A stretch of 64,000 bases of DNA, taken from positions 15,060,275 through 15,124,274 of the forward strand of contig NC_134032.1 in NCBI RefSeq assembly GCF_964204645.1. The letters run 5' to 3'. A model generated the notes under the pieces. It saw only the letters and a program-made list of their open reading frames with translations. It was not told the origin of the DNA and searched no databases. Source of the stretch: Tubulanus polymorphus. Taxonomy: Eukaryota; Nemertea; Palaeonemertea; Tubulaniformes; Tubulanidae. Positions 21,498 to 49,907 of the stretch are shown one piece after another; position 1 is the stretch's first letter; every line of letters starts with the position of its first letter. The translations under genes and the position numbers were made by a program.

Positions 21498-22391
21498 TAC
21501 GCACCCAGTAATTACTGACAATGATGCTGAATACACGATGTACAGAAATCAGAAAAAAATAAAACCGAAAGTGATTTTGAGTTTTGAGGTCTTTTCCAAA
21601 TTGCCTTCTTTGAATTTCCACAATGCAATTAACCTTGTTTGTATTTGTAAATACGTTATGAATGTTTTGTGTTGCTTTACTCATAGATTTACTTAAGATT
21701 CTGTTTGCTCTTGACTTGTTTTGTTTTTTTTGTTATTGATCAATAAATATATTCCATTTTGGTTGATAATTGGTTATCTTATATATATATAATCTATAAT
21801 CTTATCTTGGAGTTGAGAAGACTGAAAATCCTGCATTGACTAGTCTGACTTAACATACCAACCCCCCCCCCCCAGAATTGACACTGGTTAAAGTAACTGC
21901 GTGACTGATATGGCATCTTTTCAGTCTACATCTTGCAATAGACGATGTACCGGGGGTGTCCCAAGTACGAACCCAGTTATTACTGACACTGATTCAGAGT
22001 GGGTCCTGATACTGAATAGAGGATGTACAGGGGGTGTACACAGTTACTGACACTGAATCCAGTAATTACTGACACTGATTCAGAGTGGTCCTGATGCTGA
22101 ATAGATGATGTACAGGGGGTGTACACAGTTTCTGAGACTAAATCCAGTAATTACTGATACTGATTCAGAGTGGTCCTGATGCTGAATGGAGAGTGTACAG
22201 GGGGTGTACACAGTTACTGACACTGAATCCAGTAATTACTGACACTGATTCAGAGTGGTCCTGATGCTGAATAGAGGATGTACAGGGGTGTCCCGGGTTC
22301 GAATCTAGTAATTACTGACACCGGTCCAGAGTGGGATCACTATGAGGATAGAGGATCCAGTTGATGCGAATCCGTGTACAATCCGGCCGTA

Positions 22392-22557
22392 CGGTGCTGC
22401 CACTATGCTCATCGTTAGCGGGATTTTCATACACTAATGTTTGTCAACCCTGGCAATCGAAGTGCTATCCAGTTATACTCCGTGATCCTAGCATGCCAGA
22501 GTAGACTTACGTTAGTTTATGAAAATCTCGCTTACAATAACCTTAGCGGCAGCACCA
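22392..22557. mobile_element. 166-bp palindromic element, copy 4
   Basis: Carries CCTTAGCGG where most copies have CCATAGCGG near the right end. Confidence 0.75.
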
Positions 22558-24224: not shown

Positions 24225-24390
24225 CGATGCTGCCACTATGCTCATCGTTAGCGGGATTTTCATACACTAATGTTTGTCAACCCTGGCAATCGAAGTGCTG
24301 TCCAGTTATACTCCGTGATCCTAGCATGCCAGAGTAGACTTACGTTAGTTTATGAAAATCTCGCTTACAATAACCATAGCGGCAGCACCA
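24225..24390. mobile_element. 166-bp palindromic element, copy 5
   Basis: Same CGATGCTG left terminus as copy 3. Confidence 0.75.
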
Positions 24391-25684
24391 TACGCACCCA
24401 GTAATTACTGACAATGATGCTGAATACACGATGTACAGAAATCAGAAAAAAATAAAACCGAAAGTGATTTTGAGTTTTGAGGTCTTTTCCAAATTGCCTT
24501 CTTTGAATTTCCACAATGCAATTAACCTTGTTTGTATTTGTAAATACGTTATGAATGTTTTGTGTTGCTTTACTCATAGATTTACTTAAGATTCTGTTTG
24601 CTCTTGACTTGTTTTGTTTTTTTTGTTATTGATCAATAAATATATTCCATTTTGGTTGATAATTGGTTATCTTATATATATATAATCTATAATCTTATCT
24701 TGGAGTTGAGAAGACTGAAAATCCTGCATTGACTAGTCTGACTTAACATACCAACCCCCCCAGAATTGACACTGGTTAAAGTAACTGCGTGACTGATATG
24801 GCATCTCTTCTGAGAACAGTCTACATCTTGCAATAGATGATGTACAGGGGGTGTCCCAAGTTCGAACCCAGTTATTACTGATACCGATTCAGAGTGGGTC
24901 CTGATACTGAATAGAGGATGTACAGGGGTGTCCCGGGTTGGAACCCAGTTATTATTGTTCAGTGGTCCTGATGCTGATTAGAGGATGTACAGGGTGTCTC
25001 TGGTTCGAACCCAGTTATTGCTGATACCGATTTAGAGTGGTCCTGATGCTGAATAGATGATGTACAAGGGGTGTACACAGTTACTGACACTAAATCCAGT
25101 TATTACTGATACTGATTCAGAGTGGTCCTGATGCCGAATAGATGATGTACAGGGGGTGTACACAGTTACTGACACTAAATCCAGTAATTACTGATACTGA
25201 TTCAGAGTGGTCCTGATGCTGAATGGAGAGTGTACAGGGGGTGTACACAGTTACTGGCACTAAATCCAGTTATTACTGACACTAATTCAGAGTGGTCCTG
25301 ATGCCGAATAGATGATGTACAGGGGGTGTACACAATTACTGACACTAAATCCAGTAATTACTGATACTGATTCAGAGTGGTCCTGATGCCGAATAGATGA
25401 TGTACAGGGGGTGTACACAGTTACTGACACTAAATCCAGTAATTACTGATACTGATTCAGAGTGGTCCTGATGCTGAATGGAGAGTGTACAGGGGGTGTA
25501 CACAGTTACTGACACTGAATCCAGTAATTACTGACACTGATTCAGAGTGGGTCCTGATGCTGAATAGAGGATGTACAGGGGTGTCCCGGGTTCGAATCTA
25601 GTAATTACTGACACCGGTCCAGAGTGGGATCACTATGAGGATAGAGGATCCAGTTAATGCGAATCCGTGTACAATCCGGCCGTA

Positions 25685-25850
25685 CGGTGCTGCCACTATG
25701 CTCATCGTTAGCGGGATTTTCATACACTAATGTTTGTCAACCCTGGCAATCGAAGTGCTATCCAGTTATACTCCGTGATCCTAGCATGCCAGAGTAGACT
25801 TACGTTAGTTTATGAAAATCTCGCTTACAATAACCATAGCGGCAGCACCA
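25685..25850. mobile_element. 166-bp palindromic element, copy 6
   Basis: Standard ends. Followed by the 25930 module. Confidence 0.75.
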
Positions 25851-27131
25851 TACGCACCCAGTAATTACTGACAATGATGCTGAATAGACGATGTACAGGG
25901 GCTAATATCAGAAAAAAATAAAACCGAAAGTGATTTTGAGTTTTGAGGTCTTTTCCAAATTGCCTTCTTTGAATTTCCACTATGCAATTAACCTTGTTTG
26001 TATTTGTAAATACGTTATGAATGTTTTGTGTTGCTTTACTCATAGATTTACTTAAGATTCTGTTTGCTCTTGACTTGTTTTGTTTTTTTGTTGTTATTGA
26101 TCAATAAATATATTCCATTTTGGTTGATAATTGGTTATCTTATATATATATAATCTATAATCTGATCTTGGAGTTGAGAAGACTGAAAATCCTGCATTGT
26201 CTAGTCTGACTTACATACCAACCCCCTCAGAATTGACACTGGTTAAAGTAACTGCGTGACTGATATGGCATCTTTTCAGTCTACATCTTGCAATAGACGA
26301 TGTACCGGGGGTGTCCCAAGTACGAACCCAGTTATTACTGACACTGATTCAGAGTGGGTCCTGATACTGAATAGATGATGTACAGGGGGTGTACACAGTT
26401 ACTGACACTGAATCCAGTAATTACTGATACTGATTCAGAGTGGTCTTGATGCCGAATAGAGGATGTACACGGTTATTACTGACACTGAATCCAGTAATTA
26501 CTGATACTGATTCAGAGTGGTCCTGATGCTGAATAGAGGATGTACACGGTTATTACTGACACTGAATCTAGTAATTACTGATACTGATTCAGAGTGGTCT
26601 TGATGCCGAATAGAGGATGTACACGGTTATTACTGACACTGAATCCAGTAATTACTGATACTGATTCAGAGTGGTCCTGATGCTGAATAGACGATGTACA
26701 CGGTTATTACTGACACTGAATCCAGTAATTACTGATACTGATTCAGAGTGGTCCTGATGCTGAATAGATGATGTACAAGGGGTGTACACAGTTACTGACA
26801 CTGAATCCAGTAATTACTGATACTGATTCAGAGTGGTCCTGATGCTGAATAGACGATGTACACGGTTATTACTGACACTGAATCCAGTAATTACTGATAC
26901 TGATTCAGAGTGGTCCTGATGCTGAATGGAGAGTGTACAGGGGGTGTACACAGTTACTGACACTGAATCCAGTAATTACTGACACTGATTCAGAGTGGGT
27001 CCTGATGCTGAATAGAGGATGTACAGGGGTGTCCCGGTTCGAATCTAGTAATTACTGACACCGGTCCAGAGTGGGATCACTATGAGGATAGAGGATCCAG
27101 TTAATGCGAATCCGTGTACAATCCGACCGTA

Positions 27132-27297
27132 CGGTGCTGCCACTATGCTCATCGTTAGCGGGATTTTCATACACTAATGTTTGTCAACCCTGGCAATCGA
27201 AGTGCTGTCCAGTTATACTCCGTGATCCTAGCATGCCAGAGTAGACTTACGTTAGTTTATGAAAATCTCGCTTACAATAACCATAGCGGCAGCACCA
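27132..27297. mobile_element. 166-bp palindromic element, copy 7
   Basis: Left flank is CCGACCGTA rather than CCGGCCGTA, shared with copies 9 and 10. Confidence 0.75.
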
Positions 27298-29072
27298 TAC
27301 GCACCCAGTAATTACTGACAATGATGCTCAATACACGATGTACAGGGGCTAATATCAGAAAAAAATAAAACCGAAAGTGATTTTGAGTTTTGAGGTCTTT
27401 TCCAAATTGCCTTCTTTGAATTTCCACTATGCAATTAACCTTGTTTGTATTTGTAAATACGTTATGAATGTTTTGTGTTGCTTTACTCATAGATTTACTT
27501 AAGATTCTGTTTGCTCTTGACTTGTTTTGTTTTTTTTTGTTATTGATCAATAAATATATTCCATTTTGGTTGATAATTGGTTATCTTATATATATATATA
27601 ATCTATAATCTTATCTCGGAGTTGAGAAGACTGAAAATCCTGCATTGACTAGTCTGACTTAACATACCAACCCCCTCAGAATTGACACTGGTTAAAGTAA
27701 CTGCGTGACTGATATGGCATCTCTTCTGAGAACAGTCTACATCTTGCAATAGACGATGTACAGGGGGTGTCCCAAGTTCGAACCCAGTTATTACTATACC
27801 GATTCAGAGTGGGTCCTGATACTGGATAGAGGATGTACAGGGGTGTCCCGGGTTGGAACCCAGTTATTACTGTTCAGTGGTCCTGATGCTGATTAGAGGA
27901 TGTACAGGGTGTCTCTGGTTCGAACCCAGTTATTGCTGATACCGATTCAGAGTGGGTCCTGATACTGAATAGATGATGTACAGGGGTGACCCGGGTTGGA
28001 ACCCAGTTATTACTGTTCAGTGGTCCTGATGCTGATTAGAGGATGTACAGGGTGTCTCTGGTTCGAACCCAGTTATTGCTGATACCGATTCAGAGTGGGT
28101 CCTGATACTGAATAGATGATGTACAAGGGGTGTACACAGTTACTGACACTAAATCCAGTAATTACTGATACTGATTCAGAGTGGTCCTGATGCCGAATAG
28201 ACAATGTACAAGGGGTGTTCACAGTTACTGACACTAAATCCAGTAATTACTGATACTGATTCAGAGTGGTCCTGATACTGAATAGATGATGTACAAGGGG
28301 TGTACACAGTTACTGACACTAAATCCAGTAATTACTGATACTGATTCAGAGTGGTCCTGATGCCGAATAGACAATGTACAAGGGGTGTTCACAGTTACTG
28401 ACACTAAATCCAGTAATTACTGATACTGATTCAGAGTGGTCCTGATGCCGAATAGACGATGTACAGGGGGTGTACACAGTTACTGACACTAAACCCAGTA
28501 ATTACTGATACTGATTCAGAGTGGGTCCTGATGCTGAATAGATGATGTACAGGGGGTGTACACAGTTACTGACACTAAATCCAGTAATTACTGATACTGA
28601 TTCAGAGTGGTCCTGATGCTGAATAGATGATGTACAGGGGGTGTACACAGTTACTGACACTAAACCCAGTAATTACTGATACTGATTCAGAGTGGTCCTG
28701 ATGCTGAATAGATGATGTACAGGGGGTGTACACAGTTACTGACACTGAATCCAGTAATTACTGACACTGATTCAGAGTGGGTCCTGATGCTGAATAGATG
28801 ATGTACAGGGGGTGTACACAGTTACTGACACTAAATCCAGTAATTACTGATACTGATTCAGAGTGGTCCTGATGCTGAATGGAGAGTGTACAGGTGGTGT
28901 ACACAGTTACTGACACTGAATCCAGTAATTACTGATACTGATTCAGAGTGGTCCTGATGCTGAATGGAGAGTGTACAGTTCGAATCTAGTAATTACTGAC
29001 ACCGATCCAGAGTGGGATCACTATGAGGATAGAGGATCCAGTTAATGCGAATCCGTGTACAATCCGGCCGTA

Positions 29073-29238
29073 CGGTGCTGCCACTATGCTCATCGTTAGC
29101 GGGATTTTCATACACTAATGTTTGTCAACCCTGGCAATCGAAGCGCTGTCCAGTTATACTCCGTGATCCTAGCATGCCAGAGTAGACTTACGTTAGTTTA
29201 TGAAAATCTCGCTTACAATAACCATAGCGGCAGCACCA
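29073..29238. mobile_element. 166-bp palindromic element, copy 8
   Basis: Standard ends, with a GAAGCGCTG change in the loop region. Confidence 0.75.
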
Positions 29239-30519
29239 TACGCACCCAGTAATTACTGACAATGATGCTGAATAGACGATGTACAGGGGCTAATATCAGA
29301 AAAAAATAAAACCGAAAGTGATTTTGAGTTTTGAGGTCTTTTCCAAATTGCCTTCTTTGAATTTCCACTATGCAATTAACCTTGTTTGTATTTGTAAATA
29401 CGTTATGAATGTTTTGTGTTGCTTTACTCATAGATTTACTTAAGATTCTGTTTGCTCTTGACTTGTTTTGTTTTTTTGTTGTTATTGATCAATAAATATA
29501 TTCCATTTTGGTTGATAATTGGTTATCTTATATATATATAATCTATAATCTGATCTTGGAGTTGAGAAGACTGAAAATCCTGCATTGTCTAGTCTGACTT
29601 ACATACCAACCCCCTCAGAATTGACACTGGTTAAAGTAACTGCGTGACTGATATGGCATCTTTTCAGTCTACATCTTGCAATAGACGATGTACCGGGGGT
29701 GTCCCAAGTACGAACCCAGTTATTACTGACACTGATTCAGAGTGGGTCCTGATACTGAATAGATGATGTACAGGGGGTGTACACAGTTACTGACACTGAA
29801 TCCAGTAATTACTGATACTGATTCAGAGTGGTCTTGATGCCGAATAGAGGATGTACACGGTTATTACTGACACTGAATCCAGTAATTACTGATACTGATT
29901 CAGAGTGGTCCTGATGCTGAATAGAGGATGTACACGGTTATTACTGACACTGAATCTAGTAATTACTGATACTGATTCAGAGTGGTCTTGATGCCGAATA
30001 GAGGATGTACACGGTTATTACTGACACTGAATCCAGTAATTACTGATACTGATTCAGAGTGGTCCTGATGCTGAATAGACGATGTACACGGTTATTACTG
30101 ACACTGAATCCAGTAATTACTGATACTGATTCAGAGTGGTCCTGATGCTGAATAGATGATGTACAAGGGGTGTACACAGTTACTGACACTGAATCCAGTA
30201 ATTACTGATACTGATTCAGAGTGGTCCTGATGCTGAATAGACGATGTACACGGTTATTACTGACACTGAATCCAGTAATTACTGATACTGATTCAGAGTG
30301 GTCCTGATGCTGAATGGAGAGTGTACAGGGGGTGTACACAGTTACTGACACTGAATCCAGTAATTACTGACACTGATTCAGAGTGGGTCCTGATGCTGAA
30401 TAGAGGATGTACAGGGGTGTCCCGGTTCGAATCTAGTAATTACTGACACCGGTCCAGAGTGGGATCACTATGAGGATAGAGGATCCAGTTAATGCGAATC
30501 CGTGTACAATCCGACCGTA

Positions 30520-30685
30520 CGGTGCTGCCACTATGCCCATCGTTAGCGGGATTTTCATACACTAATGTTTGTCAACCCTGGCAATCGAAGTGCTGTCCAG
30601 TTATACTCCGTGATCCTAGCATGCCAGAGTAGACTTACGTTAGTTTATGAAAATCTCGCTTACAATAACCATAGCGGCAGCACCA
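30520..30685. mobile_element. 166-bp palindromic element, copy 9
   Basis: Near-duplicate of copy 7 (3388-bp offset) with CTATGCCCA in the left arm. Confidence 0.75.
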
Positions 30686-32547
30686 TACGCACCCAGTAAT
30701 TACTGACAATGATGCTCAATACACGATGTACAGGGGCTAATATCAGAAAAAAATAAAACCGATAGTGATTTTGAGTTTTGAGGTCTTTTCCAAATTGCCT
30801 TCTTTGAATTTCCACTATGCAATTAACCTTGTTTGTATTTGTAAATACGTTATGAATGTTTTGTGTTGCTTTACTCATAGATTTACTTAAGATTCTGTTT
30901 GCTCTTGACTTGTTTTGTTTTTTTTTGTTATTGATCAATAAATATATTCCATTTTGGTTGATAATTGGTTATCTTATATATATATATAATCTATAATCTT
31001 ATCTCGGAGTTGAGAAGACTGAAAATCCTGCATTGACTAGTCTGACTTAACATACCAACCCCCTCAGAATTGACACTGGTTAAAGTAACTGCGTGACTGA
31101 TATGGCATCTCTTCTGAGAACAGTCTACATCTTGCAATAGACGATGTACAGGGGGTGTCCCAAGTTCGAACCCAGTTATTACTATACCGATTCAGAGTGG
31201 GTCCTGATACTGGATAGAGGATGTACAGGGGTGTCCCGGGTTGGAACCCAGTTATTACTGTTCAGTGGTCCTGATGCTGATTAGAGGATGTACAGGGTGT
31301 CTCTGGTTCGAACCCAGTTATTGCTGATACCGATTCAGAGTGGGTCCTGATACTGAATAGATGATGTACAGGGGTGACCCGGGTTGGAACCCAGTTATTA
31401 CTGTTCAGTGGTCCTGATGCTGATTAGAGGATGTACAGGGTGTCTCTGGTTCGAACCCAGTTATTGCTGATACCGATTCAGAGTGGGTCCTGATACTGAA
31501 TAGATGATGTACAAGGGGTGTACACAGTTACTGACACTAAATCCAGTAATTACTGATACTGATTCAGAGTGGTCCTGATGCCGAATAGACAATGTACAAG
31601 GGGTGTTCACAGTTACTGACACTAAATCCAGTAATTACTGATACTGATTCAGAGTGGTCCTGATACTGAATAGATGATGTACAAGGGGTGTACACAGTTA
31701 CTGACACTAAATCCAGTAATTACTGATACTGATTCAGAGTGGTCCTGATGCCGAATAGACAATGTACAAGGGGTGTTCACAGTTACTGACACTAAATCCA
31801 GTAATTACTGATACTGATTCAGAGTGGTCCTGATGCCGAATAGACGATGTACAGGGGGTGTACACAGTTACTGACACTAAATCCAGTAATTACTGATACT
31901 GATTCAGAGTGGTCCTGATACTGAATAGATGATGTACAAGGGGTGTACACAGTTACTGACACTAAATCCAGTAATTACTGATACTGATTCAGAGTGGTCC
32001 TGATGCCGAATAGACAATGTACAAGGGGTGTTCACAGTTACTGACACTAAATCCAGTAATTACTGATACTGATTCAGAGTGGTCCTGATGCTGAATAGAT
32101 GATGTACAGGGGGTGTACACAGTTACTGACACTAAACCCAGTAATTACTGATACTGATTCAGAGTGGTCCTGATGCTGAATAGATGATGTACAAGGGGTG
32201 TACACAGTTACTGACACTGAATCCAGTAATTACTGATACTGATTCAGAGTGGTCCTGATGCTGAATAGACGATGTACACGGTTATTACTGACACTGAATC
32301 CAGTAATTACTGATACTGATTCAGAGTGGTCCTGATGCTGAATGGAGAGTGTACAGGGGGTGTACACAGTTACTGACACTGAATCCAGTAATTACTGACA
32401 CTGATTCAGAGTGGGTCCTGATGCTGAATAGAGGATGTACAGGGGTGTCCCGGTTCGAATCTAGTAATTACTGACACCGGTCCAGAGTGGGATCACTATG
32501 AGGAGAGAGGATCCAGTTAATGCGAATCCGTGTACAATCCGACCGTA

Positions 32548-32713
32548 CGGTGCTGCCACTATGCACATCGTTAGCGGGATTTTCATACACTAATGTTTGT
32601 CAACCCTGGCAATCGAAGTGCTGTCCAGTTATACTCCGTGATCCTAGCATGCCAGAGTAGACTTACGTTAGTTTATGAAAATCTCGCTTACAATAACCAT
32701 AGCGGCAGCACCA
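32548..32713. mobile_element. 166-bp palindromic element, copy 10
   Basis: Has CTATGCACA in the left arm. Followed by an extra 77-bp-type satellite fragment before the module. Confidence 0.75.
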
Positions 32714-34069
32714 TACGCACCCAGTAATTACTGACAATGATGCTGAATAGACGATGTACACGGTTATTACTGACACTGAACCCAGTAATTACTTACAATG
32801 ATGCTGAATACACGATGTACAGAAGCTAATATCAGAAAAAAATAAAACCGAAAGTGATTTTGAGTTTTGAGGTCTTTTCCAAATTGCCTTCTTTGAATTT
32901 CCACAATGCAATTAACCTTGTTTGTATTTGTAAATACGTTATGAATGTTTTGTGTTGCTTTACTCATAGATTTACTTAAGATTCTGTTTGCTCTTGACTT
33001 GTTGTGTTTTTTTTTGTTATTGATCAATAAATATATTCCATTTTGGTTGATAATTGGTTATCTTATATATATATAATCTATAATCTTATCTTGGAGTTGA
33101 GAAGACTGAAAATCCTGCATTGACTAGTCTGACTTAACATACCAACCCCCTCAGAATTGACACTGGTTAAAGTAACTGCGTGACTGATATGGCATCTCTT
33201 CTGAGAACAGTCTACATCTTGCAATAGACGATGTACAGGGGTGTCCCAAGTTCGAACCCAGTTATTCCTGATACCGATTCAGAGTGGGTCCTGATACTGA
33301 ATAGAAGATGAACAGGGGTGTCCTGGGTTGGAACCCAGTTATTACTGTTCAGTGGTCCTGATGCTGATTAGAGGTTGTACAGGGTGTCTCTGGTTCGAAC
33401 CCAGTTATTGCTGATACCGATTCAGAGTGGGTCCTGATACTGAATAGAAGATGAACAGGGGTGTCCTGGGTTGGAACCCAGTTATTACTGTTCAGTGGTC
33501 CTGATGCTGATTAGAGGTTGTACAGGGTGTCTCTGGTTCGAACCCAGTTATTGCTGATACCGATTCAGAGTGGTCCTGATGCTGAATTGATGATGTACAG
33601 GGGGTGTACACAGTTACTGGCACTAAATCCAGTAATTACTGATACTGATTCAGAGTGGTCCTGATGCCGAATAGACGATGTACAGGGGGTTTACACTGTT
33701 ACTGGCACTAAATCCAGTTATTACTGACACTGAATCCAGTAATTACTGATACTGATTCAGAGTGGTCCTGATGCCGAATAGATGATGTACAGGGGGTGTA
33801 CACAGTTACTGACACTAAATCCAGTAATTACTGATACTGATTCAGAGTGGTCCTGATGCTGAATGGAGAGTGTACAGGGGGTGTACACAGTTACTGAAAC
33901 TGAATCCAGTAATTACTGACACTGATTCAGAGTGGGTCCTGATGCTGAATAGAGGATGTACAGGGGTGTCCCGGGTTCGAATCTAGTAATTACTGACACC
34001 GATCCAGAGTGGGATCACTATGAGGATAGAGGATCCAGTTAATGCGAATCCGTGTACAATCCGGCCGTA

Positions 34070-34235
34070 CGGTGCTGCCACTATGCTCATCGTTAGCGGG
34101 ATTTTCATACACTAATGTTTGTCAACCCTGGCAATCGAAGTGCTGTCCAGTTATACTCCGTGATCCTAGCATGCCAGAGTAGACTTACGTTAGTTTATGA
34201 AAATCTCGCTTACAATAACCATAGCGGCAGCACCA
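34070..34235. mobile_element. 166-bp palindromic element, copy 11
   Basis: Last copy inside the array, with standard ends. Confidence 0.75.
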
Positions 34236-35006
34236 TACGCACCCAGTAATTACTGACAATGATGCTGAATAGACGATGTACACGGTTATTACTGACACTG
34301 AACCCAGTAATTACTGACACTGATTCAGAGTGGTCCTGATGCTGAATAGACGATGTACACGGTTATTACTGACACTGAACCCAGTAATTACTGACAATGA
34401 TGCTGAATAGACGATGTACAGGGGCTAATATCAGAAAAAAATAAAACCGAAAGTGATTTTGAGTTTTGAGGTCTTTTCCAAATTGCCTTCTTTGAATTTC
34501 CACTATGCAATTAACCTTGTTTGTATTTGTAAATACGTTATGAATGTTTTGTGTTGCTTTACTCATAGATTTACTTAAGATTCTGTTTGCTCTTGACTTG
34601 TTGTGTTTTTTTTTGTTATTGATCAATAAATATATTCCATTTTGGTTGATTATTGGTTATCTAATATATATATAATCTATAATCTTATCTTGGAGTTGAG
34701 AAGACTGAAAATCCTTCATTGTCTAGACTTAACATACTAACCCCCTCAGAATTGACACTGGTTAAAGTAACTGCGTGACTGATATGGCATCTCTTCAGTC
34801 TACATCTTGCAATAGACGATGTACAGGGGGTGTCTCAAATTCGAACCCAGTTATTACTGATACCAATTCAGAGTGGGTCCTGATACTGAATAGAGGATGT
34901 ACAGGGGTGTCCCGGGTTGGAACCCAGTTATTACTGTTCAGTGGTCCTGATGCTTGATTGCACAATCGTCCATCAAATAAGAGTACTCGATTTTTGAATG
35001 TTGCAG

Positions 35007-39685: not shown

Positions 39686-40090
39686 CTAACCTAATTGTGG
39701 TCTTATGCCATCTGCAACAACGTAGGTATCTTCTGGAGGGTTTCTGATATCTGGGACAACGTAGGTATCTTCTGGGGGGTTTCTGACACCTGCGACAACG
39801 ACGTAATCATCTTCTGAAGAGTTTCTTGCATCTGGAACAATGTAGGTATCTTCAGGAGTGTTCCTGACACCTGCGACAACGACGTAGTCATCTTCTGGAG
39901 GATTCCTGACACCTGCGACAACGACGTAGTCATCTTCTGTTGAGTTTCTTGCATCTGGAACAATGTAGGTATCTTCAGGGGGATTCCTGACACCTGCGAC
40001 AACGTAGGTATCTTCTGTAGAGTACCTAACATCTGGGCCAACGTAGTCATCTTCTGGAGAGATCCTGTCGTCAGCTGAAGTAGTTGTTGG
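39686..40090 (-). CDS. Receptor exon 28b (last): tyrosine-repeat tail, second part
   Basis: 134 codons plus TAG, entered in phase 0. After PTTTSADDRISP come nine more E-D-(T/D)-Y units (YVGP, YVVA, YIVP, YVVV, YVVV, YIVP, YVVV, YVVP, YVVA) and the end DGIRPQLG. The intron before it (40091-40184) resembles the one before the first tail exon (40914-41002), including ACCGATTTATTTTCAG, so the two tail exons arose by duplication of exon plus intron. With the previous exon this gives 21 units, seven of them YxxP. Confidence 0.9.
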   Translation of the reverse strand, partial: PTTTSADDRISPEDDYVGPDVRYSTEDTYVVAGVRNPPEDTYIVPDARNSTEDDYVVVAGVRNPPEDDYVVVAGVRNTPEDTYIVPDARNSSEDDYVVVAGVRNPPEDTYVVPDIRNPPEDTYVVADGIRPQLG

Positions 40091-43000
40091 CTGAAAATAA
40101 ATCGGTAAACAATTAGGCCTAATAATATATTCGCAAATAAAAAAAATTGAAAACAATAGAAATGTATTATTTATATTGACAAACCTTAAGTGCAACAATG
40201 TAGGTATCTTCTGGAGGGTTCCTGACACCTGTGAAAATGTAGGTATCTTCTGGAGGGTTCATGTCATCTGGGCCAACGTAGTCATCTTCAGGGGGATTCC
40301 TGACACCTGCGACGATGTAGGTATCTTCTGTAGGGTTAGAGACACCTGCAACAACATAGGTATCTTCTGGAGTGTTCCTGATATTTGGGACAACGACGTA
40401 GTCATCTTCTGCAGAGTTTCTGACACCTGCGACAACGTATGTATCTTCTGAAGAGTTTCTTGCATCTGGAACAATGTAGGTATCTTCAGGAGTGTTCCTG
40501 ACACCCGCGACAACGACATAATCATCTTCTGGAGGATTCCTGACACCTGCGACAATGTAGGTATCTTCTGGAGGGTTCATGACATCTGGGCCAACGTAGT
40601 CATCTTCTAGAGGGTTCCGGACACCTGCGACAATGTAGGTATCTTCTGGAGGGTTCCTGACACCCGCGACAAGGTTGTCATCTACGTCATCATCTGAGTT
40701 CCATACATCTACATCATCATCTGTAGAGTTCCATGCATCTACGTCATCATCTGTAGCGTTCCTTACATCTACGTCATCATCTGTAACGTTCCTGACACCT
40801 GCGACAACGACATCTACAATATCTACATCATCGTAGATTTCACCGTCATCTATGTCTTCGTAGATACCGTCCTGTGTTGTGTAGATCCTACCACCAACTC
40901 CAGAAGACGAAGGCTGAAAATAAATCGGTTAAAAAATTTACAAAATATTCACAAATAAAATAAAATTTAAAAAACAATGTGAATGTATTTATATTAACGA
41001 ACCTGATAGCACATTGCCCCTGGATCGGTCGTGTTGTTACCTAAACAATAATAGAATGTTAGATGAAATATTACATGTATTTATTCTTATTCAAAGAACT
41101 TCCTGTTCCCAAAATCAAGTCAGATTATATTCTGGAGCACTCAGTTTCATTGTTATCATTTCTAATTTGACGTAAATCCCCCAAACACGCTTTCACTCAA
41201 CCCCGTTTAATAGTAAAATGATAAATAACAAACCAGTATTTCTGTTTCTCACGTTCCTCCGCTGTCTGATCAACACGGCGATGGCTATAGCAGCCACTAT
41301 TACTAGAATCAGGAAACCGATCCCGAAAACAACTGTCAAATAACTGATTCTATCTGTATCCGTATCTGTATCTGTATCTGTATCTGAAATACAGATTATG
41401 AAACTCATCTATATCAAACAGGTTCAAATTACAGACTTAAGTTTACATATTTAAATTCTACTATTTTCACCTTTAACCCGCCATAGAAGTTTAAACCCAG
41501 CATTACTTCTAGAGTTGTCTGATGTAAACTGTATTGTAATATTTCCAGTGTGGGATCGATTACCTGGAGCAGCCGACCCGCAATACAGATTATAGCCTGG
41601 TGAAGAAATAAATAATGATAAAACTTTATGAATCATAAAAATCATTCACGTTGTGAAGAGTGTTAAGATTTTTACCGGTTTCACTTTTTATCGTCAACGC
41701 GTCCCAGCAACGACCTTTACTTGTCTGTATATGAAAATTTGACTCAAACGATATTTCAACCATCTGCAAAAATATAAATGTAATTCAAAAGTGATCAATT
41801 GTATTGTCAGCAGAATGTAGGACCCGTTTCAGTAGTTCAGTTTCAACTTTAACCCGGAGTTATCAGTTGAACTAAACCCCGGAATAAAGTTAAAACTGAT
41901 TCTAATCCCAATGAACCTCGTGCAGAAAATCTGACGACTTCATTTTTTCCTAAGACCAACATTTCACAATTATTATTCATATATTTACCGTGTTTTCAGG
42001 TGCTTGGATTAACCAGCTACAGTCGATATTGTCATTATAGCTGTTCGGGTAGTTAGGGCTGGATATGACGCCTGATCTACCATTCTGTATTATAGGTGTT
42101 TTACTACATGAATCAACTACAAATAAATATTGAATTGAATTGTTTTATATGTGATTTACTGATTCCATGATCAACTTCTCATTATGCTCAGCTACCTTTC
42201 ACAAATTTCCAACAGAGTTCAAACCCTTTATGGTAGGTACTAGACCTGTCTGATGTAAACCGGATGTCTACCTCACTGGTATAGTTACGTGTAGGTGGCG
42301 CTGTATTGCCGCAATATACATCACGATCTGCATTAAAGATAAACACACAAATTAATGATACATTTTTAGCTGGATTTGAAAACACAAATCTATCAGTAGC
42401 AGCCACACCGCAATATTCAACACTCCCTGATGATGAAATAAATCTGATAAAATTTTATGAATCATAAAAATCATTTACGTTGTGAATAGTGTTTAGATTT
42501 TTACCGGTTTCACTTTTTATCGTCAACGCGTCAAAGCAATTATCACCAGTTTTGGCCCCAATACCGAAATTCGAGTCAAATGATATTTCAACAATCTGTA
42601 AAAATATAAGAATTAAGATTAATAATTGTTGATTATAATTCAAAGTGAACCGTCGTATTGTTTGCAGAGTGCAGGACCCGTTTGTATGGATCAGTTTTAA
42701 CTTTAATCCAGAGTTATCAGTTCAAAACTAAACCTCGGGTTAAAGTTAAAACTGAATTCAGCCGCCATTGAGCTCGAACTAGTGCAGTAAACCCGACATC
42801 ATTTTTCTCATAGACCAAATATTTACCGTGTTTCCAGGTACTGCAATTAACCATCTACAGTCCAGCCTGCGGTAGTACTTGTTCGGGTAGTTAGGGCTGG
42901 ATAGGACGCCTGATCTACCATTCTGTATTATAGGTGTTTTACTACATGAATCAACTACAAATAAATATTGAATTGAATTGTTTTATATGTGATTTACTGA

Positions 43001-46000
43001 TTCCATGATAAACTTCTCATTATGCTCAGCTACCTTTCACAAATTTCCAATGGAGTTCAAACCCTTTATGGTAGGTACTAGACCTGTCTGATGTAAACTG
43101 GATGGCTACCTCACCGGAATAGTAGCGTGTAGGTGGCGCTGTATTGCCACAATATACATCACCATTTTCTGCTGTAAAAATAAACACACAAATCAATGAT
43201 AGATTTTCTAGCTGGATTTGAAAATATACATCAGGAGCCACCAAATAAATCTGATAAAATTTTATAAATCATAAAATTCATTCACGTTGTGAATAGTGTT
43301 TAGATTTTTACCGGTTTTACTTTTTATCGTCAACGCGTCCCGGCAACTATCACCAGTTTTGGCCCCAATACTGAAGTTCGAGTCAAATGATATTTCAACA
43401 ATCTGTAAAAATATAAGAATTAAGATTAATAATTGTTGATTATAATTCAAAGTGAACCGTCGTATTGTTTGCAGAGTGCAGGACCCGTTTGTATAGATCA
43501 GTTTTAACTTTAATCCAGAGTTATCAGTTCAAAACTAAACCTCGGGTTAAAGTTAAAACTGAATTCAGCCGCCATTGAGCTCGAACTAGTGCAGTAAACC
43601 CGACATCATTTTCTCATAGACCAAATATTTACCGTGTTTCCAGGTACTGCAATTAACCATCTACAGTCCAGCCTGCGGTAGTACTTGTTCGGGTAGTTAG
43701 GGCTGGATAGGACGCCTGATCTACCATTCTGTATTATAGGTGTTTTACTACATGAATCAACTACAAATAAATATTGAATTGAATTGTTTTATATGTAATT
43801 TACTGATTCTATGATCAACTTCTCACTAATGACCTACCTTTCACAAACCACCACAGCAGTTTAAACCCACTGTAGCTACCATAGCTGCCTGATGTAAACC
43901 GGATGATTACACGACCGGTATAGTTACGTGTAGGTGGCGCTGTATTGCCACAATATACATTCACTGTAAGAATAAACACACAAATCAATGATATTTTTTA
44001 GCTGGATTGGAAAACACAAATCTATCAGTAGCAGCCACACCGCAATATTCAATACTCCCTGATGATGAAATAAATCTGATAAAACTTTATGAATCATAAA
44101 AATCATTAACGTTGTGAATTTTTACCGGTTTCACTTTGTATCGTCAACACGTCCCAGCACCGACCGTAACTTTTGGGCTCTATGCTAAAATTCGAGTCGA
44201 ATGATAATTCAACCACCTTAAAAACAATATAAGAATTTAGAATTTAAATATCATTCAAAAAGTGAGCAATCGTAAAATATAGGACCCGTTCATATAGATC
44301 AGTTTAAACTTAAACCCGGAGTTACGTATCAGTTCAGAACTTAACCCCGGATTAAAGTTAAAACTGTTTTGACCAAATATTTACCGTATTTTCAGGAGCT
44401 ACAATCGCCCAGCTACAGTTCAGTCCGTGGTAGTAGTTGCCCGGGTAGTTAGGGCTGGATAGGACGCCTGATCTACCATTCTGTATTATAGGTGTTTTAC
44501 TACATGAATCAACTACAAATAAATATTGAATTGAATTGTTTTATATGTAATTTACTGATTCTATGATCAACTACTCATTATGAGCTACCTTTCAAAAACC
44601 GCCAGAACAGTTTAAACCCTTTGTAGCTATTAGAGCTGTCTGATTTAAACTTGATGATTACATCTCCGGAATAGTAACGTGTAGGTGGCGCTGTACTGCC
44701 ACAATATACATCACCATTTCCTGCTGTAAAAATAAACACACAAATCAATGATATATTTTTAGCTGGATCTGAAATCAATTAACTGAATAAATCAAATATA
44801 TTCCTTAATTTATTCATTTGACATCGAGTCTGAAATAGAATGATTCGATTCTTACTGGAATAGTCTGTGTATATTATGTATAATTTGTCACGGCAATTAT
44901 GAGTATCACTGGTCGTATTGGAATCCACTTCGAAGATAGGATCAAACGATATTTCTACTTTCTGGGAATAGAAATAATCATGATTCATTATTATTCAAAT
45001 GCGTTCAAACCCTCTATTACTTGTAACACGGTTATTTAAGGGCTACAGGTAGAATTTAGGAACAAACATGATTCAACTTTTTGAAATAAAAATAATTGAA
45101 TTTATCAATGATCAAATATTTTCACACCATTCTGACTGTCATTAGGGGTTACCCGTTATGGGGTCATCCTTATTAACGAGATGATGTATTTTACCGAGAT
45201 GAACCGAGATCAACCGAGATGAAATTAAATATAACATATTTATTTATTCCTTATCGATTTTAACACTTGAAATCATGTTATATCAGTAATAAATACCTTC
45301 TAGAGTCATATTTTACATATATTCTACATATTTTACATATTTTTTTATTTAAAAAAATTTTGACTCAAAAAACGTAAACTCGGTTAGCAATAAAATTTCA
45401 TTGAATTTGATTGATCGACGATCTCATCTCGGTAAAGTTAAAAGTTATTTTTCCAAAAATATCCGACAAAATATGTAAAATATGAACCCAGCAGGCATTT
45501 ATTACTGATATTATAATATGATTTCAATGGTTAAAATCGATATGGAATAAATAAATATGTTATATTTAATTTCATCTCGGTTCATCTCGGTAAAATACAT
45601 CATCTCGGTAATAAGGATGACCGCCCGTTATGTGATGTTATAGTTAAACAGTTAAGCAGCCGATTTGGTGCTGGATCCAAGCTACGTCCTACACTAGTCC
45701 AAATTGTACTGACAAAAACATTTTTGATAATATTTCTAGTTTTCCTAACCGCGTATAAATATATTTTACCATTTCCTGTGTTTTATATTTACCATGTTTT
45801 GCGGTGTTCGAATCAACCATCTACAGTGCAGATTGTCGCCATAGTTACCCGGGTAGTTAGGACTGGTTATTACGCCTGTTCTACCGATCTGTACTCTAGA
45901 CTGCCTGCTACATGTCGAGTCAACTACAAATATTAAATTTATTATTATATATGTTATTTACTGATTTCATGATAAACTTCTCATTATGTACTATGGTACC

Positions 46001-49000
46001 TTTCAGTATCGTCCAGTGGAGTTTAAACCCGGTATAAGTTCGACTGCTGCCTGTGTTAAACATGATTTTTACAGAACCAGAATAGTAACGTGTAGGTGGC
46101 GCTGTGCTGCCACGATAGCTAGCAATATCTATTTTCAAAATAAAATACACAAATCAAAATTTTTCTAGGTGGATCTGAAAATAATAAACTAAATGAATCG
46201 TAGATATTTTTCGCATATTTTTAAAAATAGAATTATTCCATTCTTACATATCCCGTTAACGAATATGTTTAAAGGGCTACCACTATCCACTCTGAATCTA
46301 GGATCAAACGATATTTCAACTCCCTGAAATTAAGCAATTATAATTGATTATTTTTCAAATCCTAGTACACTTCTCCAAATTATACAGACAAAACATGTTT
46401 CATAAGCGGCAAATATTTTTCACTCCTAAAAGCAACAATTTCCTGCGTTTTCCTATAATTACCGTGTTTTTAGGTGTTTTTATCAACCATACACAGTTCA
46501 GATGGTGATTATAGTTGCCCGGAAAGTTAGGACTGGATATGACGCCTGATGCACCATTCTGTACTCTAGGTGTCTCACTACAAGTCGAATCAACTACAAA
46601 TAAATATTGGTTTTATTGTTTTATATGTGATGAATGAATTTATTTTCTCAAATGTTTGAACATGGGTATAATAATAATTTTGTTTGATTACTGCTGCATA
46701 TGAATTGAAATTTTACTTGTTTGAGGAGGACATCCCCGAGCCGTAAGAGCTGTACCTGAAGGGGATGCCCTCTAAGATTTACTGATTCCATGATCAACTT
46801 CTCATTATGAGCTACCTTTCAAAAACCGCCAAACGAGTTTAAACCCTTTGTAGCTGACAGAGTCGTCTGATGTAAACCGGATGATTACACGACCGGAATA
46901 GACACGTGTAAGTGGCGCTATACTGCCGCAATATACATCACCATTTTCTGCTGTAAATATAAACACACAAATTAATATTTTCTAGCAGGATTTTTAAAAA
47001 CACACATTTCCCTGATGAAAAAATAAATCTGATAAAATTTTATGAATCACAAAAATCATTGTGAAGAGTGTTTAGATTTTTACCAGTTTTACTTTTTATC
47101 GTCAACGCGTCAGGGCAACCACTGTACGTTCTAAATTCTACATGAAATTTCGAGTCGAATGATATTTCAACCATCTGCAAAAAATATATGAATATTCAGC
47201 ATTTAATTATAGTTTAACAGTGAACATGTATGTATTGTTTACAGGATGTAGGACCCGATATATACAGAGTGTCTTAGAAAATGTGATACACAATTCATTA
47301 ACTATTACACGTAATTTTAGCTATTTTCTTGGGGAGGGGGTAAGGTTGGTAGACCTGGATGTTTGCAAGAGGATCGATTGGCCCTAGAGTCAAACCTAAA
47401 ACTACAGATTGTTCCATTGTGTACGTTTATTGTTAAATGACCAGCTGCTGCCTGTTGAGATATTGATCACTAAATCACTGGATTTCACTTGTTGGGTATT
47501 CTACTGTGTAAAAACTGAGGTATTCAAAACATATCTAGCAGGAATCGAAAACTTTAGTCTTCGGAAAGTAACAGATTTTGAGAAATACTGAATCTGATGA
47601 GTCAAAATTCTACGATAAAACGTCGACCTCAAGTGTGAAAACAGTTACCATATTGAACAAATCTGGAGCAGCTTAATTTGTAAGGAGGACCAACAATTTT
47701 ATTCAGGAGAAATTTGTCTTAGTTAATTTATGTCATGTCTCAAATCATCATGTCATATGGCAGCAGATCATTTATCAATACACGCACACAATGCATGCAT
47801 TAATCCTTATTTCTTATATTGGTTCAACTCCAACCATTTTTTAAGCTACGGTAACACATTTTTGAGACGCCCTGTATATCAGTTTTAACTTTACCCTAGA
47901 GTTATCAATTGAACTAAACCTCGGGTTAAAGTTAAAACTGAATTCAGCCGCCATTGAGCTCGAACTAGTGCAGTAAACCCGACATCATTTTTCTCATAGA
48001 CCAAATATTTACCGTGTTTCCAGGTACTGCAATTAACCATCTACAGTCCAGCCTGCGGTAGTAGCTGTTCGGATGGTTAGGGCTGGTTATGACGCCTGAT
48101 CTACCATTCTGTATTATAGGTGTTTTACTACATGAATCAACTACAAATAAATATTGAATTGAATTGTTTTATATGTGATTTACTGAATCCATGATAAACT
48201 TCTCATTATGCTCAGCTACCTTTCACAAATTTCCAATGGAGTCTAAACCCTTTGTAGCTACTAGACCTGTCTGATGTAAACTGGATGACTACACGACCGG
48301 AATAGTAGCGTGTAGGTGGCGCTGTTTTGCCACAATATACATCTGCCGTAAAAATAAACACACAAATCAATGATAGATTTTTAGCTGGATTTGAAATCTG
48401 TAAACTGAAGAAATCGCAGATATTTCTTCATTTATTCATTTCACATCGAGTTTAAGATTAAATTGTTCGATTCTTACAGTTTGGGTCATTATATATGGAT
48501 ACTTTGTCACGGCAATGACCACTTGCCGTATTGAGTTCCAATTCGAAAATAGGATCAAACGATATTCTTGACACCTAAAAATAGAATCAGTCACGTGGTT
48601 ATCTAAGGGTTTCCCGTAGAATTTAGGATCAAATCAGATTCAACTTTGAACTATGCAACTCTGAAATAAAATTAATTTGATTGTTTCATTATTTCTTAAA
48701 TATTTTCACTACATTCTAACTGGTAGTAATGATTAAGGGTTACCCCTATTGATAATGCATAACGTGATGTAATAGTTAATCAGTTCAGCGCCCGATTTGG
48801 TGCTGGATCCAAGTTCCGTTCTACACTTGTCCAAATATTACTGACAAAAACATTTTTTATTATATTTCTAGTTTTTCTAACCGCGAATATATTTCACAAT
48901 TTCCTGTGTTTTATATTTACCATGTTTTGAGGTATATCAATCTCCCAAAAACATTCCAGATTGTCGCCATAATTGCCAGGGTAGTTAGGACTGGTTATGA

Positions 49001-49907
49001 CGCCAGAAGTTCCGTTCTGTTTTCTATACCGCCAGCTACAACTCGAGTCGATGTTATCTGCCCAAACTGTATAGAAAAATACCCGTATCTATAAACTTAT
49101 AAAGCGGTAGTTAGTAGGACTAACTCAACTGATAATGAATTTAGTTAGCCTTCGGGTCGAGGTTAATACCAGTCTATAAAAAAGAGAACTGGTCATCAGT
49201 TACCACACCACACTGATCACCAGGTCACCACAGCTGACTAGTCACCAGTCACTGGACTTGTCACCAGGTCACCACAGCTGACTAGTCATCAGTCGGCACC
49301 ACAGCTAAATGGTCAGACACTGACCGGACAAACTACATCAAACTTTATGGTCTAGTGGTTAGCGTGATCGCCTGGCACAGTGGAGGTCCCGGGTTCGAGG
49401 CTGAGGATAAACTCCTCCCGCTAGGTGCTGATGATAAGTTCCCGCGATAGAAATATCATTTGATTTTGATTAATTAAATATGTTATTAATCTTTTAAATT
49501 CTATATATTGTGGTTTTAAAACCTACTGTCTAATTTGACCGGTGCTATACTACCAATAGGTAGTTGCTGTTTTGAGAAAATTTATTCCTTTTTTTTTAAA
49601 ATAAACAACTGTCCTTGAAACGAGTTCCGGAACAACGCGTCATACTGGCCGTTTAGTGAGGTAATAAAGTGACCTTTTGAGACCATTAGTTTAGAGAGTT
49701 CCTCAGATTGGCACCCGCACCGCGGCATTGATCAAACAGTTCTAACCTATGTGACGGCACTAATCTCAATAATTTAACTCTAAAATTCTTAATCAACAAA
49801 TTTAATCAGTATTAAGTGATATAAATATTATTTGTTCGCTTACCTTGAGAATTCTCGACGAATAAAATTACAGCGACCACAAACAAACTCTTCATCATCA
49901 ACTCCAT
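39686..49907 (-). CDS. Eight-CUB transmembrane receptor with tandem tyrosine-motif tail (28 exons)
   Basis: Predicted 1396-residue type I membrane protein: signal peptide (1-21), eight CUB domains (22-956), an Asp/Thr stalk (957-967), a helix (about 971-995) followed by RQRR, and a 401-residue cytoplasmic tail. Coding exons from 5' to 3' on the minus strand begin at 49907 and end at 39686, and are listed under the parts. All 28 are open, all introns are GT-AG, all phases match, and the exon sum is 4191 nt (1396 codons plus stop). Each CUB is three exons flanked by phase-1 introns, so whole domains can duplicate without frame loss, and intron similarity shows recent duplication. The tail carries 21 E-D-(T/D)-Y motifs, likely kinase and SH2-domain targets. 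CUB domains usually bind proteins or glycans, some with calcium. The ligand is unknown. CDCP1 is a similar architecture, but orthology is not claimed. Confidence 0.9.
40185..40913 (-). CDS. Receptor exon 28a: tyrosine-repeat tail, first part (243 codons)
   Basis: Phase 0 at both ends. Starts with three spaced tyrosines (RIYTTQ, GIYEDI, EIYDDV; the last two form a YxxI-x5-YxxV pair close to but shorter than an ITAM). Then comes an Asp-rich stretch of four DDDVD units, then 12 tandem 13-14-residue units of the form R-N-P-P-E-D-(T/D)-Y-(I/V)-V-A-G-V. Tyrosine contexts include YIVA, YVVA, YVVV, YIVP, YVGP and one YIFT. The strong acidic context before each Tyr fits Src-, Syk- or Abl-type kinase substrates. 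Confidence 0.9.
41003..41040 (-). CDS. Receptor exon 27: 38-nt juxtamembrane exon
   Basis: NNTTDPGAMCYQ, entering in phase 1 after TTGTTTAG and leaving in phase 0. It joins the helix exon to the repeat tail in frame. The cysteine could be a palmitoylation site, but that is inference. Confidence 0.8.
41234..41383 (-). CDS. Receptor exon 26: stalk and transmembrane helix
   Basis: Begins with an alternating (DT)5 stalk coded by a GATACA microsatellite, then a ~25-residue hydrophobic segment (residues about 971-995, containing VVFGIGFLILVIVAA) and the stop-transfer RQRRNVRNRN. Entry and exit phases are both 1. A slippage-prone repeat could change stalk length by two residues at a time without frame loss. 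Confidence 0.9.
41471..42116 (-). CDS. Receptor CUB domain 8, membrane-proximal (exons 23-25)
   Basis: Exons 41989-42116, 41676-41763 and 41471-41596. Cysteines in DSCSK, IDCSW, GRCWDA and LYCGS. Includes an NRSHTGNIT stretch with potential N-glycosylation. Leaves phase 1 into the stalk, completing an Asp codon. Confidence 0.88.
42196..42954 (-). CDS. Receptor CUB domain 7 (exons 20-22)
   Basis: Exons 42827-42954, 42505-42595 and 42196-42327. Has the four standard cysteines plus an extra one near the end (GFELCWKF, where domain 6 has GFELHWKF), which would be unpaired within the domain. Confidence 0.88.
43034..43760 (-). CDS. Receptor CUB domain 6 (exons 17-19)
   Basis: Exons 43633-43760, 43312-43402 and 43034-43168. 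Nearly identical to domain 7 in both exons and introns, including the 5' exon GVLSSPNYPNKYYRRLDC, so this pair is the youngest duplication. Tandem CAGCAG acceptor at the third exon. Confidence 0.88.
43838..44512 (-). CDS. Receptor CUB domain 5 (exons 14-16)
   Basis: Exons 44385-44512, 44126-44216 and 43838-43963. All four cysteines (DSCSK, LNCSW, GRCWDV, VYCGN). Middle exon starts VVELSFDSNF after a TTTTTAAG acceptor, the only non-CAG/TAG acceptor in the gene. Confidence 0.86.
44589..45923 (-). CDS. Receptor CUB domain 4 (exons 11-13)
   Basis: Exons 45793-45923, 44856-44961 and 44589-44720. Cysteines in STCSR, LHCRW, HNCRDK and VYCGS. The middle exon is the longest of the eight (106 nt). The first intron carries a 463-bp inverted-repeat element. 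Tandem CAGCAG acceptor at the third exon. Confidence 0.88.
45161..45623. mobile_element. 463-bp inverted-repeat element with 9-bp target duplication
   Basis: Begins GGGTCATCC, ends GGATGACCG, with long imperfect inverted arms (repeated ACCGAGATGAACCGAGATGA, CATATTTATTTATTCC). Flanked by CCCGTTATG on both sides (45152-45160 and 45624-45632). Long arms and a 9-bp target duplication resemble Mutator-like non-autonomous elements. Sits in the first intron of CUB 4. Confidence 0.85.
46000..46593 (-). CDS. Receptor CUB domain 3, lacking Cys3 and Cys4 (exons 8-10)
   Basis: Exons 46463-46593, 46248-46323 and 46000-46128. Cys1 and Cys2 are kept (STCSE, LNCVW). The middle exon is 15-30 nt shorter than in most other domains and has no cysteine where the others have CxD, and the third exon reads SYRGS where the others read VYCG. 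One complete disulfide and the nearby Asp of the calcium site are therefore missing together. Frame and splice sites are intact. Confidence 0.85.
46816..48140 (-). CDS. Receptor CUB domain 2 (exons 5-7)
   Basis: Exons 48013-48140, 47084-47174 and 46816-46947. All four CUB cysteines are present (DSCSK, LDCRW, SGCPDA, VYCGS). The intron between the first two exons has a ~610-bp transposon insertion. The third exon has a tandem CAGCAG acceptor, either half of which keeps frame. Confidence 0.88.
47265..47874. mobile_element. ~610-bp non-autonomous mariner-like element
   Basis: Ends CAGAGTGTCTTAG and its partner CGCCCTG form short inverted termini flanked by TA. Paralogous CUB introns show the empty site (GGACCCGTTTGTATAGATCAG type). 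Internal frames are short and non-coding. ACAGGGTGTC-like termini are common in Tc1/mariner relatives. Confidence 0.75.
48220..49057 (-). CDS. Receptor CUB domain 1 (exons 2-4)
   Basis: Exons 48921-49057, 48478-48574 and 48220-48342. The first holds Cys1 and Cys2 around GVITSPNYPGNYGDN, the second FDPIFEL and Cys3 in GHCRDK, the third Cys4 in VYCGK and the closing KGFRLHWKF. The cysteine pattern and the SPNYP core are diagnostic of CUB. It is the most divergent N-terminal member along with CUB 4, and its middle exon opens VSRISFDP rather than the usual VEISFDS. Confidence 0.88.
49203..49310. repeat. ~44-bp imperfect tandem repeat
   Basis: Two to three units around CACCAGGTCACCACAGCTGA in receptor intron 1. 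Confidence 0.7.
49341..49450 (+). mobile_element. tRNA-derived SINE-like element in receptor intron 1
   Basis: TGGTCTAGTGGTTAGCGTGA matches a pol III A box and GGTCCCGGGTTCGAGGC a B box, ~30 bp apart as in a tRNA. The 3' half does not complete an acceptor stem, so this is a SINE head and not a tRNA gene. Confidence 0.7.
49844..49907 (-). CDS. Receptor exon 1: signal peptide
   Basis: MELMMKSLFVVAVILFVENS then Q, leaving phase 1 at CAAG|GTAAGC. Short basic start, hydrophobic core SLFVVAVILFV. It is the first ATG after a TATA-like element ~130 bp upstream. Internal ATGs at codons 4 and 5 could also initiate and would keep the signal peptide. Confidence 0.85.

Follow-up and report, generated by a model that had tools for sequence, protein, structure and literature searches.

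Predicted CUB-array receptors sharing a tyrosine-repeat tail in the nemertean Tubulanus polymorphus

We analyzed a 64,000-nucleotide (nt) stretch of the 268-Mb genome of Tubulanus polymorphus (assembly GCF_964204645.1, contig NC_134032.1, positions 15060275–15124274), hereafter called the window; the contig is referred to as C8. On its minus strand, between window positions 49907 and 39686, lies an intact-looking animal gene that is predicted to encode a receptor at the cell surface, with eight extracellular CUB domains and 21 intracellular tyrosine motifs. The gene model was rebuilt from splice sites in the genomic DNA and has 29 coding exons, one more than the 28 counted in an earlier note on this locus. 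The GT-AG splicing and consistent phases described there hold at every internal boundary. In-frame stops, which that note had named as evidence against its model, were not found: all 29 exons are open, and a single stop stands at the end. With the outer acceptors, the coding sequence comprises 4209 nt and the product 1402 amino acids (aa). When acceptor 49057 is used in place of 49066, together with the inner AG of the NAGNAG acceptors at 46947, 44720, and 43168, the 4191 nt and 1396 aa of the earlier model are reproduced exactly. Very probably, the two models describe the same gene and differ only by one in the exon count.

The features of the gene are as follows (window positions). L001–L004 are paralogues described below, and the acidic triad refers to E/D, D, and D at positions that we take to be those of the calcium-binding CUB subtype.

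49844–49907, minus strand: exon 1, with the start codon and signal peptide MELMMKSLFVVAVILFVENSQ; 64 of 64 nt identical in L001–L004
48220–49066, minus strand: CUB 1 (exons 49066 or 49057–48921, 48574–48478, 48342–48220); four cysteines, acidic triad E/D/D
46816–48140, minus strand: CUB 2 (exons 48140–48013, 47174–47084, 46950 or 46947–46816); triad present
46000–46593, minus strand: CUB 3 (exons 46593–46463, 46323–46248, 46128–46000); triad lost
44589–45923, minus strand: CUB 4 (exons 45923–45793, 44961–44856, 44723 or 44720–44589); triad present
43838–44512, minus strand: CUB 5 (exons 44512–44385, 44216–44126, 43963–43838); third triad acid replaced by Gly
43034–43760, minus strand: CUB 6 (exons 43760–43633, 43402–43312, 43171 or 43168–43034); first triad acid replaced by Gly
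42196–42954, minus strand: CUB 7 (exons 42954–42827, 42595–42505, 42327–42196); first exon the same as the first exon of CUB 6
41471–42116, minus strand: CUB 8, membrane-proximal (exons 42116–41989, 41763–41676, 41596–41471); first triad acid replaced by Gln
41234–41383, minus strand: transmembrane exon with a (DT)n linker, the single predicted helix, and the basic stop-transfer stretch RQRRNVRNR; homologous exon in L001–L004
41003–41040, minus strand: 38-nt micro-exon NNTTDPGAMCYQ; a related exon precedes each of 11 aligned tails
40185–40913, minus strand: tail exon 1, with proximal IYTTQ, IYEDI, and IYDDV, acidic DDDVD repeats, and 12 ED[TD]Y repeats
39686–40090, minus strand: tail exon 2, with 9 ED[TD]Y repeats and the stop codon
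39265–39390, minus strand: doubtful candidate for a further 3' exon, or possibly a decayed repeat (EDDYTVTETLYK...); an open stretch reachable from an AG|GTTAGT donor at 39691

The doubtful stretch past the stop at 39686 was left out of the model. Among its best equivalents, those of L002 and L003 are open, that of L001 is interrupted by stops, and that of L004 is missing the EDDY part.

Eight CUB domains had been proposed earlier, together with a search against CUB profiles. Pfam PF00431 detected eight stretches in the 1402-aa product, with 408.9 bits against a cut-off of 21.4, and a PDB sequence search matched the CUB parts to cubilin, neuropilins, and MASP. CUB domains often bind proteins or glycans, many of them via a calcium site. 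Each CUB of the window gene is encoded by three exons, A, B, and C, which start in phases 1, 0, and 1, respectively. We aligned 31 CUB units from six C8 genes, leaving out one L003 exon. Four cysteines in a C1-C2, C3-C4 pattern of predicted disulfides are present in seven of the eight window CUBs and in 29 of the 31 units; CUB 1 of L001 lacks C2. The full acidic triad, its columns assigned by alignment, was found in 3 of the 8 window CUBs and 11 of the 31 family units. The single helix proposed earlier was also recovered: besides the signal peptide, the best 19-residue Kyte-Doolittle mean is 3.17, at residues 983–1001. Because the basic RQRRNVRNR follows the helix, the tail would lie in the cytosol according to the positive-inside rule. 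The (DT)n linker just outside the helix is a hexanucleotide repeat (41383–41349), the length of which varies among paralogues (DKDTD in L003, longer in L004).

The genome was searched with a part of the tail at E values up to 1, and 17 loci were taken for comparison. The 34 matches comprised the window, five other places on C8 (E no higher than 1e-31), three on C2 (at 1e-25), and a weaker rest, several of which contain stops. At L009, taken for a weak tail match, no tail exon passed the filter. The C8 loci differ in their numbers of CUBs and tyrosine motifs, with 8 and 21 in the window gene, 3 and 30 in L001, 5 and 20 in L002, 6 and 19 in L003, 7 and 18 in L004, and 2 and 11 in L005. L001–L004 were modeled in frame through the micro-exon by the same splice rules as the window gene and have the CUB phases, helix, micro-exon, and tail in common with it; the five genes lie 0.22–0.45 Mb apart on both strands. 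In each of their ten pairs, the 64 nt of the signal exon are identical. For L005, which was traced one exon at a time, a similar signal peptide was seen together with two CUBs, a helix, the micro-exon, and a single tail exon. With at least six CUB-array genes (2–8 CUBs) that have this tail, the combination described earlier is not confined to one gene.

Related tails also occur behind exons of other kinds. On C2, three tandem copies (L006, L016, and L017) have a related micro-exon and tail after a helix, behind non-CUB exons. L006 was the sole C2 copy scanned with Pfam, its exons being read singly. It yielded FN3 at 30.4 bits (cut-off 25) and, below cut-off, F5/8C-like (27.1; cut-off 27.8), EGF-like, and PTPRU FN3 profiles; open frames similar to those of L006 are visible in L016 and L017. 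The tail therefore appears to be a module that is also placed behind non-CUB (FN3, EGF-like) exons on C2. L014, on C8, has CUB exons, and the tails of L014 and L015, as read in the stretch, carry the proximal motifs with at most one repeat. The first tail exons of the window gene, L001–L006, and L014–L017 were aligned, with the acceptor placed by eye for L014, L015, and L017; the second and third tail exons of L001 and the tails of L007/L010 and L013 stand outside this alignment. YEDI was present in all 11 tails, Y[QST]TQ in 10, and Y[DN][DN]V in 8, and YQP or Y[LY]QP spans the splice junction in 11 of 11. Since these motifs are kept across the aligned tails and the repeats number none or one in L014 and L015, the conserved core seems to be the proximal tail, with the ED[TD]Y rows as apparent later expansions.

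Other CUB-related loci were seen during the search. CUB genes at L007 with L010 (C8:3518300–3527700) and at L013 (C6:18488800–18496500) have a weakly related helix exon (E of 0.14 and 1.4e-4) and another tail, with the motifs TIYAR[LI]DN and LYGE[LI]DF, and in L010 also IYSVEPP. Post-CUB stretches of L007 (3110–3517), L013 (2134–2703), and L014 (3942–4423) matched no Pfam model over cut-off and may resemble PLAT-like domains; those of L007 and L013 are alike by eye (VYTGR...QTV.IGF.ETGSDV.YFHLGT.FEAGS). On C9, between 2.27 and 5.02 Mb, at least 27 weak matches to the CUB query were obtained, 25 of the 27 listed being in open frames of 415–461 aa on both strands. Together they make up a large family of proteins that are each encoded in one exon and have a signal-like start, and the example L012:394–1638 gave no Pfam family over cut-off. 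A dense run of minus-strand CUB exon matches lies at C6:6110412–6132061.

The 21 tandem tyrosine motifs reported earlier were counted again as 12 and 9 in the two tail exons of the window gene. They are of the types YVVV (5), YIVA (4), YVVA (4), YVGP (3), YIVP (3), YIFT (1), and YVVP (1), so that 7 of 21 are YxxP sites. With the proximal ones, 26 tyrosines follow the helix. Immunoreceptor tyrosine-based activation motifs (ITAMs) have the form YxxL/I-x6-8-YxxL/I, and the corresponding inhibitory motifs (ITIMs) the form (S/I/V/L)xYxx(I/V/L). An ITAM was not found, L/I at +3 being present at one of the 26 tyrosines (YEDI), and 0 of the 26 lie in an ITIM. A PDB search with tail exon 1 gave no matches at E up to 10. 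In the genome, 46 SH2 exon matches (unclassified) were obtained; thus, SH2 readers exist.

Repeat units were collected from the six C8 tails by means of a pattern in which E at −3 is required and the Tyr position is free (n = 122). Tyr was kept in 120 units. Departures from TAC comprised nine synonymous TAT codons versus two nonsynonymous changes, to one Asp and one Phe codon. This retention favors constraint on the tyrosines, although the units are not independent. Asp stands at −2 in 119 of the 122 units and D/E at −1 in 48 of the 120 tyrosine motifs. Such acidic repeats might be written by a Syk-family instead of a Src-type kinase, the protein being a Syk/ZAP-70-type scaffold comparable to LAT fused to a receptor. 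ZAP-70 has a preference for acidic sites carrying Asp at −1 and disfavors positive residues nearby, according to the site-preference part of the source (PMC5089863). However, the residue at −1 is Thr in 72 of the 120 motifs, K/R occurs within 7 residues in 118, and the mean net charge is only −1.2. An ITAM that could recruit Syk is also lacking, because only YEDI has L/I at +3. The basic residues weaken Syk/ZAP-70 as the sole writer, and because of them and the Thr at −1, we regard this scaffold as unlikely.

Constraint was also seen in the CUB domains. Eighteen columns of the 31-unit alignment are invariant in amino acid, with a mean proportion of synonymous differences (pS) of 0.58 over the 16 that have synonymous sites, which demonstrates coding constraint; in twelve columns, the nonsynonymous proportion (pN) is 0.5 or more. 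Chance open reading frames were ruled out on the grounds that L001–L004 follow the same exon rules and that the 18 framework columns show no amino-acid change. The invariant columns with their synonymous change also bear on the idea that the family is a reservoir, the window member being an unexpressed, decaying gene or a donor for gene conversion. CUB 3 with its lost triad and two lost, paired cysteines, the several similar copies on the chromosome, and the possible decayed repeats after the stop would fit that idea; the framework columns, together with 29 of 29 open exons with usable splice sites, make it very improbable.

If whole CUBs had been duplicated, the distance matrices of the A, B, and C exons should agree. 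Their mean correlation was 0.26, below every value obtained with 100 random column partitions of the same sizes (0.68–0.87) and with 22 contiguous shifted blocks (0.33–0.66). Unequal exon rates could lower the correlation somewhat, and the shifted blocks control for part of this. The A, B, and C exons of a CUB thus seem to have separate histories. The simplest reading would be that breakpoints lie at or close to the ends of exons, with exchange therefore occurring through introns. Nearest-neighbor discordance did not discriminate: it affected 29 of 31 units (30 of 31 on alignment columns), with 19–28 in random partitions and 26–30 in shifted blocks. In L003, two successive B exons (3330–3420 and 3638–3734) stand between one A and one C exon and are, by phase, usable one at a time, pointing to either mutually exclusive splicing or a deletion scar.

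We compared the divergence of CUB exons with that of their introns. The exons have a pN of 0.20–0.30 and a pS of 0.30–0.43, and the C-to-A introns between CUBs differ by 0.088 on average (22 of 24 introns; two long ones dropped). The median difference is 0.29 for A-B introns (25 of 29 used) and 0.13 for B-C introns (28 of 29 used), and the contrast between exons and introns is therefore not uniform. CUB 1 exons diverge more than intron 1 in all ten gene pairs, by 1.2–5.7 times, with Fisher p<0.05 in eight. Among the window gene, L002, L003, and L004, the excess is 2.5–5.7 times in four of the six pairs and 1.5–1.9 in the other two. The signal exon, helix, micro-exon, and first 120 nt of the tail are 94.7–100% alike among the window gene, L003, and L004.

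The last observation would be expected if these genes were ordinary adhesion or matrix receptors, the CUBs and tail repeats of which arose by neutral unequal crossing-over, with a meaningless number of sites and no recognition repertoire. Near-identical repeats, a tandem-repeat tail, and varying copy numbers of CUBs and motifs are compatible with such growth, as are the pN/pS values of 0.66, 0.68, and 0.69 for the three CUB exon types (29 units, L005 left out) and the last CUB, the exons of which are significantly more divergent than the short intron before the helix in one of the ten pairs only. Neutral growth accounts less well for exon blocks of seemingly separate history, for the CUB 1 excess in 10 of 10 pairs, for invariant framework columns beside columns with high pN, and for YEDI in all 11 aligned tails behind different ectodomains. 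We consider it a possible, if doubtful, explanation.

The sequence shows the gene structure, the family, the shared tail module, an apparent exon mosaicism, and an excess divergence of the first CUB in most gene pairs. From it, we infer the surface location, phosphorylation, kinase, adaptors, ligand, and recognition role. The reading that we favor, with a probability of about 0.53, is that of an expanded family of type I receptors whose CUB ectodomains recombine and whose multi-phosphotyrosine tail, resembling p130Cas, offers a Src-type kinase a docking site at YEDI. In such a receptor, the CUB array outside (8 CUBs here, 2–7 in the five paralogues) would bind a protein or glycan ligand, and binding could be diversified by recombination in introns that changes array length and single CUB exons. 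Ligand binding or clustering would bring tails together. A Src-type kinase would phosphorylate the membrane-proximal YEDI, dock there by its SH2 domain, and modify the ED[TD]Y row processively. One receptor could then recruit many SH2 adaptors, Crk-type ones at the 7 of 21 YxxP sites and others at YVVV and Y[IV]VA. The earlier proposal of a signaling receptor is kept as far as a type I receptor, its CUB ectodomain, and a tail apparently built for multisite tyrosine phosphorylation are concerned, and given up as to a single combination.

Several observations weigh against the favored family of recombining receptors. CUB 3 of the window gene (46593–46000) lacks C3 and C4, both cysteines of the second disulfide, lost in two different exons. 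L001 has three tail exons, the second and third of which lack YEDI, and the FN3/EGF-like exons of L006 are assigned to the gene of its tail by position only. Src kinases prefer a hydrophobic residue at −1. The ED[TD]Y context lacks one, and this lack, together with K/R near 118 of the 120 motifs, makes the identity of the kinase uncertain. At −3, Glu (itself required by the pattern) is encoded by GAA in 121 of the 122 units, and the conservation of the repeats therefore partly reflects recency. Classical positive selection on point mutations is not supported, pN/pS being 0.66–0.69 with synonymous sites raised as well. The A-B introns are as divergent as the exons, and in the four pairs with L001 the CUB 1 excess is only 1.2–1.4 times, two of the four being nonsignificant; the last CUB, as described above, is a further such point.

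An extension of the favored reading would be a hitherto undescribed recognition system of animals whose variable part consists of CUB domains and not of Ig or lectin domains. Two to eight CUBs would be reassorted exon by exon through similar introns, and one shared tail, with a YEDI dock for a kinase and 11–30 phosphotyrosine sites, would also stand behind an unrelated FN3/EGF-like ectodomain. We put this forward tentatively and think it rather less probable than its absence. If the CUB exons are polymorphic, it would be a further kind of variable ectodomain beside the tunicate and hydroid systems, with the same tyrosine logic inside. The 11–30 near-equal tyrosine sites in six sister genes would offer a natural experiment on site number versus signal strength and clustering.

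Elsewhere in the window, arrays of an approximately 85-bp satellite, with recurring copies of one 86–102-aa open frame scattered among them, were seen at 17790–34656, and a 31-bp minisatellite with 74.5 copies and 95% matches at 10779–13101.

In the open-access literature, no description of this receptor architecture was found among the matches listed; orthologues could well exist in sequence databases. The comparisons with CDCP1 and p130Cas drawn earlier are sensible. CDCP1 is alike in its CUB ectodomain, one helix, and tail tyrosines. In the sections of the source on the tail, these number five and include Y734, both a Src target and a Src SH2 dock, and further effector sites; a juxtamembrane Cys-Cys is followed by Val and lysines (PMC3534080). 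In contrast, the window gene has 26 post-helix tyrosines, 21 of them in repeats, and its family has 2–8 near-identical three-exon CUBs. The Cys-Cys and lysine run of CDCP1 was not found in the post-helix residues RQRRNVRNRNTG. Among CDCP1 profiles, CDCP1_CUB_6 reached 81.2 bits (cut-off 27), far under the generic CUB profile, and CUB_CDCP1_2 reached 25.9, below its cut-off of 27.

For p130Cas (BCAR1), processive phosphorylation along the repeats has reportedly been suggested. Its many-tyrosine repeat domain, read by SH2 adaptors, resembles the tail described here; the relevant part of the source gives 15 intrinsically disordered YxxP repeats that can be phosphorylated by Src-family kinases (PMC3983058). 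Cas is a scaffold with SH3 and other domains, whereas here the repeat lies within a predicted receptor and 7 of 21 motifs are YxxP. The SH3 and FAT-like domains of p130Cas were absent from the eight Pfam families with E up to 1 in the 1402-aa product. LAT feeds several adaptors and has hardly any ectodomain. It shares acidic tyrosine sites, as far as its sites are treated in PMC5089863; the ED[TD]Y sites differ in having basic residues nearby.

Single motifs also have known counterparts. YEDI is similar to pYEEI, the peptide observed in complex with the SH2 domain of v-Src, and YDDV is similar to YDXV, which the Nck SH2 domain reads (motif passages of PMC3507883). Choanoflagellate transmembrane proteins (PTSG_05573 and others) likewise carry a row of tyrosine motifs in the tail. 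These are YxxP repeats, the Crk consensus, phosphopeptides of which bind the choanoflagellate Crk SH2 domain, and their recognition predates animals (PMC5043372). Compared by description, they differ in their motif (pYDVP versus ED[TD]Y[VI]V here), and the passages on them mention no CUB array (PMC5043372). Among invertebrate receptor families, the Botryllus Fester co-receptors (FcoR) and the Hydractinia Alr candidates are similar in combining variable ectodomains with tyrosine signaling tails, as outlined in part of PMC12065747. FcoR has Ig and Sushi domains and ITIM/hemITAM motifs (PMC12065747), whereas the window gene has a CUB array and 0 ITAMs or ITIMs among its 26 tyrosines. The principle of a multi-phosphotyrosine receptor tail is already known from the choanoflagellate YxxP membrane proteins and CDCP1; surprising to a specialist would be the mosaic of CUB exons combined with a shared tail that can be swapped.

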